This document shows positions 51,542-60,473 of a stretch of DNA of 64,000 bases, piece after piece. The translations under genes and the position numbers were made by a program. Source of the DNA: Variovorax sp. V93 (GTDB taxonomy: Bacteria > Pseudomonadota > Gammaproteobacteria > Burkholderiales > Burkholderiaceae_C); assembly GCF_041154485.1 (NCBI RefSeq), contig NZ_AP028669.1:1178001-1242000 (forward strand), in the 5' to 3' direction. The first letter of the stretch is position 1. Each line of letters begins with the position of its first letter. The notes under the pieces were generated by a model. The model saw only the letters and a list, made by a program, of their open reading frames with translations. It was not told the DNA's origin and did not search any database.

Positions 51542-52237
51542 ATGGCCCGTCTGCCCCGTCTCACGCTCCCCGGCCTGCCACACCACGTGATCCAGCGCGG
51601 CAACAACCGCCAGGCCATCTTCATCGACCGCGCCGACCACGAGCGGCTGCTCGGCCTGATGGCGGACGCGGCCCCGCGCTTCGGCGTGGCACTGCATGCC
51701 TACGTGCTGATGGACAACCATTTCCATCTGCTGGCCACGCCCGACACGGCCACCGGGCTGCCGCAGTTCATGCAGGCGGTGGGGCGCAGCTACGTGCGCT
51801 ATTTCAACGACCGCCACGGTCGCAGCGGCACCCTGTGGGAAGGGCGCTACCGATCGACCTTGATCCAGACCGACCGCTATCTGCTGACCTGCATGGCGTA
51901 CATCGACCTGAACCCCGTGCGGGCCGGCATGGTGTCGGACGCGCGCGACTTTCCATGGTCCAGCCATGGGCATTACGCAGGCCTGCGGCATGACAGGCTG
52001 CTGACGCCGCATCCGCTCTACTGGGAGCTGGGCAACACCCCCTTTGCCCGCGAGGCGGCGTACGTCGAACTGGTGCGCGGCGGCGTGCGTGCGGCCGACC
52101 AGGGCACGCTGACCGAGGCCACCTTGCGGGGCTGGGCAGCCGGCGATGCGGATTTTCTTGCGTCGCTTCAGAAAGCGACCGAACGCCGCGTTGCCAAAGC
52201 CAAGGCCGGGCGTCCGCCGGCGGCGTCCGATTCCTGA
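51542..52237 (+). CDS. REP-associated tyrosine transposase (RAYT, Y1_Tnp family)
   Basis: This 231-residue Y1/HUH nuclease is of the IS200/IS605-related RAYT group, domesticated transposases linked to REP palindromes. N-terminal LTLPGLPHHVIQRGNNRQAIF, the HUH motif HFH in YVLMDNHFHLLATP, and the catalytic tyrosine in RYLLTCMAYIDLNPVRAGMV are all present, so the enzyme looks intact. There is no partner tnpB and no terminal inverted repeats, as expected for RAYTs. It lies between the methyltransferase gene and gltB, followed by an AT-rich segment containing a direct repeat. Confidence 0.92.
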   Translation: MARLPRLTLPGLPHHVIQRGNNRQAIFIDRADHERLLGLMADAAPRFGVALHAYVLMDNHFHLLATPDTATGLPQFMQAVGRSYVRYFNDRHGRSGTLWEGRYRSTLIQTDRYLLTCMAYIDLNPVRAGMVSDARDFPWSSHGHYAGLRHDRLLTPHPLYWELGNTPFAREAAYVELVRGGVRAADQGTLTEATLRGWAAGDADFLASLQKATERRVAKAKAGRPPAASDS

Positions 52238-58780: not shown

Positions 58781-59608
58781 ATGGAATCAGCCGCACCACC
58801 GCCACACCCCTTTGTCGAATTCCGCGACGTTTCGTTCGGCTACGGCGCGCGGGCGATCCTCGGCGGTGTGTCGTTTGCCGTGCCGCGCGGCAAGGTGACG
58901 GCGCTGATGGGCGCCTCGGGCGGCGGCAAGACCACCGTGCTGCGGCTCATCGGCGGCCAGCAGCGGGCGCAGCGCGGCGAGGTGCTTTTCGACGGCCAGG
59001 ACGTCGGCAGGTTCGATGCTGCCGGGCTGTACAAGGCGCGGCGCCGCATGGGCATGCTGTTCCAGTTCGGGGCCCTGTTCACCGACATGAGCGTGTTCGA
59101 CAACGTCGCGTTTCCGCTGCGCGAGCACACGCAGCTCTCGGAAGCGCTGGTGCGCGACATCGTGCTCATGAAGCTCGACGCGGTGGGCTTGCGCGGCGCG
59201 CGCGACCTGATGCCCAGCGAGGTGTCCGGCGGCATGGCGCGGCGCGTGGCCCTCGCGCGCGCCATTGCGCTCGATCCCGACCTCGTGATGTATGACGAAC
59301 CCTTTGCCGGCCTCGACCCGATTTCCCTCGGCACGGCCGCGCGGCTGATCCGCCAGCTCAACGACACGCTGGGGCTGACCAGCATCGTCGTGTCGCACGA
59401 TCTCGAGGAAACCTTCCGCATCGCCGACCACGTGATCATCCTGGCCAACGGCGGCATCGCTGCGCAGGGCACGCCTGCAGAGGTGCGCGAGAGCGCCGAT
59501 CCATTGGTGCATCAGTTCGTCAATGCACTGCCCGACGGGCCGGTGCACTTTCACTACCCCGTTGTCGGCATCGAGGAAGATTTCGGCAATGGAGGAGGGC
59601 AGGCATGA
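58781..59608 (+). CDS. mlaF: Phospholipid transport ATPase MlaF
   Basis: This 275-residue ATPase belongs to the Mla inner-membrane complex that maintains outer-membrane lipid asymmetry. Walker A GASGGGKTT, signature VSGGMARRVALARAIALDPD, Walker B LVMYDEPFAGLDPISLG and switch IVVSHDLEETFRIADHVIIL are all MlaF-like. The start at 58781 is chosen; an ATG 11 codons upstream (58748) would add residues encoded by the terminator hairpin. The end of the gene is the ancestral junction with mlaE, now separated by an inserted repeat. Confidence 0.93.
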   Translation: MESAAPPPHPFVEFRDVSFGYGARAILGGVSFAVPRGKVTALMGASGGGKTTVLRLIGGQQRAQRGEVLFDGQDVGRFDAAGLYKARRRMGMLFQFGALFTDMSVFDNVAFPLREHTQLSEALVRDIVLMKLDAVGLRGARDLMPSEVSGGMARRVALARAIALDPDLVMYDEPFAGLDPISLGTAARLIRQLNDTLGLTSIVVSHDLEETFRIADHVIILANGGIAAQGTPAEVRESADPLVHQFVNALPDGPVHFHYPVVGIEEDFGNGGGQA

Positions 59609-59690
59609 GCGCAGCGATGGACCGCCCCCAGCAAGCGAAGACCCCCTCGGGGGGCAGCGAGGACACGAAGTGCCGAGCGTGGGGGCAGCC
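59605..59690. repeat. 86-bp structured repeat inserted between mlaF and mlaE
   Basis: The insert is flanked by the direct repeat CATGAGC (59604-59610 and 59690-59696). An outer stem GCCCCCA (59624-59630) with TGGGGGC (59680-59686) encloses an inner hairpin CCCCC-TC-GGGGG around 59642-59653. I recall near-identical sequences in many Variovorax and Acidovorax intergenic regions. It resembles a small non-autonomous palindromic element. Confidence 0.65.
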
Positions 59691-59694
59691 ATGA
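59605..59694 (+). CDS. 29-codon leader mini-ORF bridging mlaF and mlaE
   Basis: An ATG at 59605 overlaps the mlaF stop (ATGA, 59605-59608) and is preceded by the strong GGAGGAGGG (59591-59599). It opens a 29-residue frame (start MSAAMDRPQQAKTPSGG, end RAWGQP) that stops at 59692-59694, overlapping the mlaE ATG as another ATGA. The frame is not that of mlaE. It is the translation of the inserted repeat and could keep ribosomes flowing from mlaF to mlaE. It is too short and repeat-derived for a functional protein; a role as a coupling leader is inferred. Confidence 0.5.
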   Translation: MSAAMDRPQQAKTPSGGSEDTKCRAWGQP

Positions 59695-60473
59695 GCTGGT
59701 GGAACCCCGCCGACATCGGCTTTGCCGTGCGCAGCAAGCTGGCCGACCTGGGCTACGGCGCCAAGCTGTTCCTGCGCCTGCTGGTGCGGGGGGCACGAAG
59801 CTTGCAGCGCTTCGGCCTGGTGCGCGACCAGATCCATTTCCTGGGCAACTACTCGCTGGCCATCATTGCGGTGTCGGGGCTCTTCGTCGGCTTCGTGCTG
59901 GGCCTGCAGATGTACTACGCGCTGCAGCGCTACGGCTCGTCCGAGGCGCTCGGACTTTTGGTGGCACTGAGCCTGGTGCGCGAGCTCGGGCCGGTGGTGG
60001 CGGCCCTGCTGTTCACGGGGCGTGCCGGCACTTCGCTCACCGCGGAGATCGGCCTCATGAAGGCCGGCGAGCAGCTCAGCGCCATGGAGATGATGGCGGT
60101 CGACCCGGTGCAGCGCATTCTTGCGCCGCGTTTCTGGGCCGGCGTGATCACGATGCCGCTGCTGGCGGCCGTGTTCAGCGCGGTCGGCATCATGGGCGGC
60201 TACGTGGTGGGCGTGCTGATGCTGGGTGTCGACCCGGGCGCGTTCTGGGGCCAGATGCAGGGCGGCGTCGACGTCTGGCGCGACGTGGGCAACGGCGTGA
60301 TCAAGAGCATCGTGTTCGGTTTCACCGTGACCTTCATCGCGCTGCTGCAGGGCTACGAGGCCCAGCCAACGCCCGAAGGCGTGTCGCGCGCGACGACGCG
60401 CACGGTGGTGATGGCGTCGCTCTCGGTGCTCGGGCTCGACTTCCTGCTCACGGCCATGATGTTCAGTATTTGA
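59691..60473 (+). CDS. mlaE: Phospholipid transport permease MlaE
   Basis: This 260-residue inner-membrane permease has the Mla/MCE permease family signature (GLFVGFVLGLQMYYALQRYG, SLVRELGPVVAALLFTGRAGTSLTAEIGLMKAGEQLSAMEMMAVDP). MlaFEDB moves phospholipids between MlaC and the inner membrane. The start at 59691 gives the family N-terminus MSWWNPADIG. There is no good Shine-Dalgarno immediately before it (GGGGGCAGCC only); initiation probably depends on the upstream ATGA mini-ORF. This is unusual among its neighbours. Confidence 0.93.
   Translation: MSWWNPADIGFAVRSKLADLGYGAKLFLRLLVRGARSLQRFGLVRDQIHFLGNYSLAIIAVSGLFVGFVLGLQMYYALQRYGSSEALGLLVALSLVRELGPVVAALLFTGRAGTSLTAEIGLMKAGEQLSAMEMMAVDPVQRILAPRFWAGVITMPLLAAVFSAVGIMGGYVVGVLMLGVDPGAFWGQMQGGVDVWRDVGNGVIKSIVFGFTVTFIALLQGYEAQPTPEGVSRATTRTVVMASLSVLGLDFLLTAMMFSI

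Follow-up and report, generated by a model that had tools for sequence, protein, structure and literature searches.

How does an 86-bp segment come to lie between two genes that, in most relatives, overlap directly by their stop and start codons, and why is it kept there? The question arises in the Mla lipid-transport operon of Variovorax sp. V93, within a 64,000-nucleotide stretch of DNA (the window) in which two ORFs, which we take to be mlaF and mlaE, are separated by an 86-bp insert, with an ATGA overlap at each end of a 29-codon ORF. A reading of the sequence alone had proposed that a repeat entered this junction and became a translational-coupling leader. The analyses below support that proposal and place the insert among many junction copies of one repeat family, so that it is not an isolated accident. 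The features of the junction, in window coordinates, are:

58781..59608, + strand: mlaF, the ABC-type ATPase gene in the Mla operon for lipid transport (presumed name; ORF, orthologues aligned)
59591..59599, + strand: GGAGGAGGG, Shine–Dalgarno-like sequence just 5′ of the first ATGA
59605..59608, + strand: first ATGA, overlap of the mlaF stop (TGA at 59606–59608) and the mini-ORF start
59605..59694, + strand: mini-ORF of 29 codons plus stop (MSAAMDRPQQAKTPSGGSEDTKCRAWGQP; ORF reading)
59607..59686, + strand: dispersed structured element (match to covariance model R1, 72.2 bits, the window copy being one of the 15 sequences from which R1 was built)
59642..59653, + strand: central hairpin CCCCCTCGGGGG of the element (covariation alignment)
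59664..59672, + strand: small covarying hairpin CACGAAGTG of the element (covariation alignment)
59691..59694, + strand: second ATGA, overlap of the mini-ORF stop and the mlaE start (ORF reading)
59691..60473, + strand: mlaE, permease (presumed name; start set by orthologues aligned from residue 1)

Several observations of the sequence-only reading were reproduced directly: the two ends of the 86-bp segment are nearly identical (GGGCAGGCATGAGC at 59597–59610 and GGGCAGCCATGAGC at 59683–59696 agree at 13 of 14 positions, with a spacing of 86), GGAGGAGGG lies immediately before the first ATGA, and the old ATG opens a 29-codon frame that ends in a new ATGA shared with mlaE. Judging from this arrangement, GGAGGAGGG would ancestrally have stood before mlaE, and at present it would stand before the mini-ORF. 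Such overlaps had also been remarked at many other junctions of the window; −4 overlaps occur at 10 of the 45 co-directional neighbour pairs called by our home-made codon-model gene finder, which misplaces some starts (for example, it put the mlaE start at 59670). The description of the segment as structured held only modestly for its own single-strand fold (59611–59697; z = −1.94, with 9 of 200 shuffles equally good) and strongly for the covariation of its family.

The insert across relatives

We compared 141 mla loci, four of which were without mlaF, leaving 137 junctions, with some genomes represented twice. Inserts of at least 20 bases were present in 16 of the 137 rows, 15 of them distinct, and all 15 distinct inserts were 3n + 2 bases long (86, 29, 95, 89, 56 or 68 bp), each beginning with an ATGA or GTGA that spans the mlaF stop, lacking internal stops and closing with a stop that overlaps the mlaE start (−4 at both ends). 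This is the pattern expected under the earlier claim that mlaE stayed translated only behind an insert whose frame ends at its start codon, and most co-directional copies of the family conform to it as well (see below). Within the genus (61 genomes searched, 60 with mlaE, two without mlaF on the contig), 10 of the 58 genomes with both genes readable carried an insert.

Insert presence was then placed on a tree of mlaF plus mlaE DNA (68 rows whose MlaE identity was 84% or more and whose length sufficed, identical mlaE sequences being entered once; 14 with an insert). Ten changes were needed, at least nine of them gains or losses forced by well-supported branches, so that the element is not conserved in position; L027 and L029, for instance, are nested inside an insert-bearing clade, yet have the bare overlap. 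The 54 rows without an insert retain the overlap, mlaF ending in ATGA in 50 and in GTGA in 4, as the proposal of an insertion into a coupled junction would have it. The window insert shares 90–93% identity with the inserts at this junction in L026, L028 and L030, 83–85% with those of L047, L051, L058, L137 and L092, 50–77% with those of L066, L067, L075 and L152, and 70–78% with the 14 other own-genome copies in the model. Because it is closer to the inserts of the first three loci than to copies in its own genome, the insert of the window clade looks vertically inherited, and from this pattern of identities the 86-bp form is probably one old insertion that was repeatedly and precisely lost. 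The inserts of L066, L067, L075 and L152 may be separate events, as perhaps is that of L092.

A dispersed family of multi-hairpin repeats

The element is a member of an approximately 80-bp multi-hairpin repeat family found at stop/start junctions within operons. The family was first found by BLAST of 59611–59697 against its own genome, which returned, besides the query itself, 13 further places (14 in all; best other copy, E = 1.4 × 10−14), in line with the expectation of a repeat. In the 15-copy alignment, 38 cells had changed on both sides of a pair versus 2 on one side only, compared with a mean of 11 two-sided cells after shuffling and 0–8 when pairing partners were slid. G–U intermediates were nearly absent from the covarying stems, and for this reason the alignment suggests that the hairpins may be maintained at the DNA level, as in single-strand transposition.

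Searched with the model, the genome of origin yielded at least 21 matches (E ≤ 0.01; 150 candidates scored out of 10,352 from the first look). Within the genus, 38 of the 41 genomes contained matches at E ≤ 0.001, with 114 candidates scored in each, and within the family, sampled as one genome per genus, 58 of 70 contained matches at E ≤ 1 × 10−5, with 66 candidates scored. A class-wide draw, in which 16 candidates were scored per genome and which is therefore weak on absence, gave matches in 3 of 281 genomes, including the genome of origin. Rfam returned no match at the gathering threshold for the window, and none at E ≤ 1 for 59500–59800.

Some junctions hold tandem copies approximately 81–88 bp apart (L227, L190, L198 and places in G027 and G376), and those of L227 form a single 55-codon mini-ORF. 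There is also a shorter subfamily (L183–L185, 1501–1571; 77 bp from start to start in L183 and L185), the mini-ORF of which reads MSAAPGRPKQARSR..APRVHQ, with a downstream end of GTGCACCA or GTGCATCA that coincides with the following start or lies close to it; three own-genome copies belong to this subfamily (E of approximately 0.0005–0.002).

Coding phase at operon junctions

Genomic context was examined for 110 copies, which are best-scoring matches, not a random draw: 21 from the genome of origin, 29 from the genus search and 60 further rows of that search taken in order (from the genus-search rows, two tandem neighbours and one copy near a contig end were dropped, and one tandem pair was counted as one locus). 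By home-made gene calls, 93 of the 110 lay between co-directional genes; of the other 17, 14 had neighbours that converge or diverge, and 3 fell within a called gene. A strict mini-ORF, starting −8 to +7 from the upstream stop and ending −4 to +5 from the downstream start, was present in 74 of the 93 co-directional copies. Shifting the sequence in mid-element by −2, −1, +1 or +2 bases left 12, 10, 12 and 10 of the 93, respectively, and shifts of +3 or −3 bases left all 74. When homologous junctions were collapsed into 52 clusters, 42 had a mini-ORF (weighted count 40.9, versus 4.0–7.7 when shifted), and the probability of such agreement under random phase was approximately 2 × 10−18 by loci and 4 × 10−10 by clusters. 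Among the 19 co-directional copies failing the strict test, three represent one orthologous junction at which the gene finder fused the element with the gene, two are tandem, and the remainder are wider-spaced or ambiguous.

The same held in other genera of the family, where 55 further copies were examined and 36 were co-directional by the home-made finder: the strict mini-ORF was found in 26 of the 36 (10 failed), versus 5–6 after shifts of one or two bases. The remaining 19 of the 55 were not co-directional, 13 of them being inside a called gene. Six plasmid records had an element match, of which five were inspected and two had usable gene tables; in both of these (Variovorax sp. PBL-E5 plasmid 3 and Azoarcus sp. 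KH32C pAZKH), the NCBI gene calls flank the copy tightly, with a mini-ORF between them. Read from sequence, then, copies of the same repeat family form linking mini-genes at many operon junctions in related bacteria. Relative to transcription, 83 of the 93 copies had the common orientation, 7 the opposite one (the minority to which the mla copy belongs) and 3 were ambiguous; 4 of the 74 mini-ORFs lay on opposite-orientation copies, and all three frames were used on entry into the element.

A probable coupling cassette and its alternatives

A mobile hairpin element probably persists at these operon junctions as a translational-coupling cassette. Ribosomes finishing mlaF would re-initiate on the mini-ORF, traverse the hairpins and terminate on the second ATGA, where the terminating ribosomes, or the unfolding that they cause, would start mlaE; translation of the mini-ORFs and mobility of the element are both inferred. 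Copies or later indels that break the chain of coupling would lower downstream expression and be lost, leaving the element as a tolerated, possibly useful cassette for which the identity of the peptide would be irrelevant. Mini-ORFs occur in each of the three frames and, in a few cases, on the opposite strand, so selection would be keeping the coupling rather than the peptide; coupling predicts just such a pattern, in which the phase is conserved and the peptide is not.

A functional, conserved micropeptide, which the recurrence of one peptide version (26 protein letters) at many loci might favour, is highly improbable and was rejected since the frames differ between copies: other frames of the same element at different loci, some on the opposite strand, yield unrelated peptides, species differ in frame even at one junction (the cluster of L171), and the mlaF/mlaE peptide is down to 10 residues in two genomes. 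We also find it improbable that the repeat is an ordinary REP- or MITE-like palindrome, acting in mRNA stability, termination or DNA structure, with the open frame a by-product of GC-rich, stop-poor sequence. Its hairpins do covary, the window has a GC content of approximately 67%, and 62 of 79 common-orientation copies have no stop in any of the three sense frames (a further 16 are open in two frames and 1 in a single frame, in a count that leaves out the last six bases of the element). However, openness fails to explain the phase, because shifts of one or two bases cut the matches from 74 to 10–12 of 93, and mlaF/mlaE inserts of very unlike sequence and length are all 3n + 2.

Somewhat less remote, though still doubtful in our judgement, is a frame built into the element, with its own start, stop and length, such that no selection after insertion would be needed. 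Many copies do share start-side ATGAACCCCCAC and stop-side GGCCTGAC motifs, and mycobacterial MIRUs are described with such an ORF (PMC12548453); against this, the start-to-start distance of single copies varies between 77 and 101, the entry and middle frames vary between copies, and mlaF/mlaE inserts with lengths from 29 to 95 all keep the frame.

As to how the coupling cassette would act, unmasking of the ribosome site by the hairpins was considered and rejected, there being no clear difference from control starts. The predicted opening of the downstream ribosome site rose from 0.31 to 0.46 when the 5′ part was melted (36 of 42 junctions), and the same melting at control mlaE starts without an insert gave 0.31 to 0.43 (38 of 46); with 0.31 against 0.36 for shuffles, the intact element was itself predicted to be slightly less open. 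Because the predicted masking of the downstream start is not clearly unlike that of controls, we favour termination–reinitiation over pure unfolding, as an inference. On a broader reading we are close to evenly divided, leaning slightly against: that this is a mobile betaproteobacterial element which has become translation-transparent in evolution, being mostly open in the three frames of its usual orientation and so insertable in any phase, and that its mini-ORF is then held in the coupling phase by selection, so that it spreads through operons as a general cassette.

Proposed mobility and a candidate partner

Of the earlier description of the insert as a small mobile palindromic element, the dispersed repeat stands, and mobility would follow from that dispersal together with presence and absence at one site. 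The flank comparison did not show a target duplication past the start codon: across 42 mini-ORF junctions, flank identity past that codon was only slightly above that of mismatched pairs, and the long target-site duplication seen at the window locus (13 of 14) was rejected as a general feature, other flanks being near the mismatched-pair level. The spacing nevertheless agreed between the two ends in 32 of the 74 copies, more often than under permutation (mean 17.9, maximum 32 in 10,000). MITEs are marked by terminal inverted repeats together with a clear duplication of the target site; for the present family, the flanks gave no consistent duplication past the start codon.

A single-copy Y1_Tnp (RAYT-like) gene lies at 51542–52237 (+) of the window, approximately 8 kb upstream of the element, and 38 of the 41 genomes of the genus have a Y1 transposase gene in single copy. 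Other members of the genus (for example, G025 and G034) also have the Y1_Tnp match approximately 8 kb from mlaE, on one contig with it, so the gene looks like a fixed resident. One genome (G035) has the element without a transposase match, and three (G036, G037 and G040) have a transposase match without copies. The Y1_Tnp gene is a possible partner or mover of the repeat family, which we offer only as a lead.

Relation to known repeats

Mycobacterial interspersed repetitive units (MIRUs) insert at ATGA-type sites with target duplication. The mla inserts have ATGA or GTGA at both ends, but flank identity past the start codon is only slightly above that of mismatched pairs. To our knowledge, dyad symmetry is absent from the MIRU family proper, whereas covarying hairpins are present in the element described here.

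In a 2025 review (PMC12548453), MIRUs are short, apparently mobile repeats at start codons with an internal ORF coupled (−4) to the gene, as here; several copies lie side by side at senX3–regX3 (PMC4213456), and tandem copies occur in the present family also. The correspondence includes placement at junctions of co-directional genes (93 of 110 copies, and 36 of 55 in other genera) and an ORF overlapping or abutting both neighbours (74 of 93, versus 10–12 when shifted, and 15 of 15 at mlaF/mlaE). The coupling principle is already known from MIRUs, which Supply et al. reportedly treated in 1997, and the present family is the same kind of thing. Unlike MIRUs, it belongs to another phylum and other hosts; it is a covarying multi-hairpin element, three frames and, rarely, the opposite strand serve as its mini-ORF, and its length differs across species in frame-keeping steps. 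Our literature search, mostly of openly accessible journals, turned up no report of such an element for betaproteobacteria.

Within the literature searched, this route to operon junctions is described only for mycobacteria. The findings suggest that such junctions, usually deemed closed to insertions, are a preferred home of a mobile repeat, and they caution that tiny ORFs found there may be coupling devices rather than peptide genes. The family offers dozens of natural insertions for measuring what it costs to break or to keep translational coupling, and for those at mlaF/mlaE, sister species provide the empty sites.

Two other groups of repeats share some of these traits. REP/BIME palindromes, paired with RAYT transposases (PMC2817692), are likewise short, palindromic and dispersed, and a single-copy Y1 transposase occurs across most of the genus here; unlike them, the present element lies mostly at operon junctions in coding phase, and its presence does not track that of the transposase (G035 versus G036, G037 and G040). 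The enterobacterial units RU-1 to RU-3 (PMC2759123) are intergenic hairpin repeats with open reading frames, usable also when shifted; those frames are fused to other reading frames, whereas here they form separate mini-ORFs between two genes. An N-terminal fusion is possible at one orthologous junction (L172, L263 and L268), where the element may be the in-frame N terminus of the downstream gene. At three further loci (L169, L220 and L266), a copy lies beside an apparent tRNA gene, as judged by eye, and in L169 and L220 a readable mini-ORF ends at the start of the next gene.
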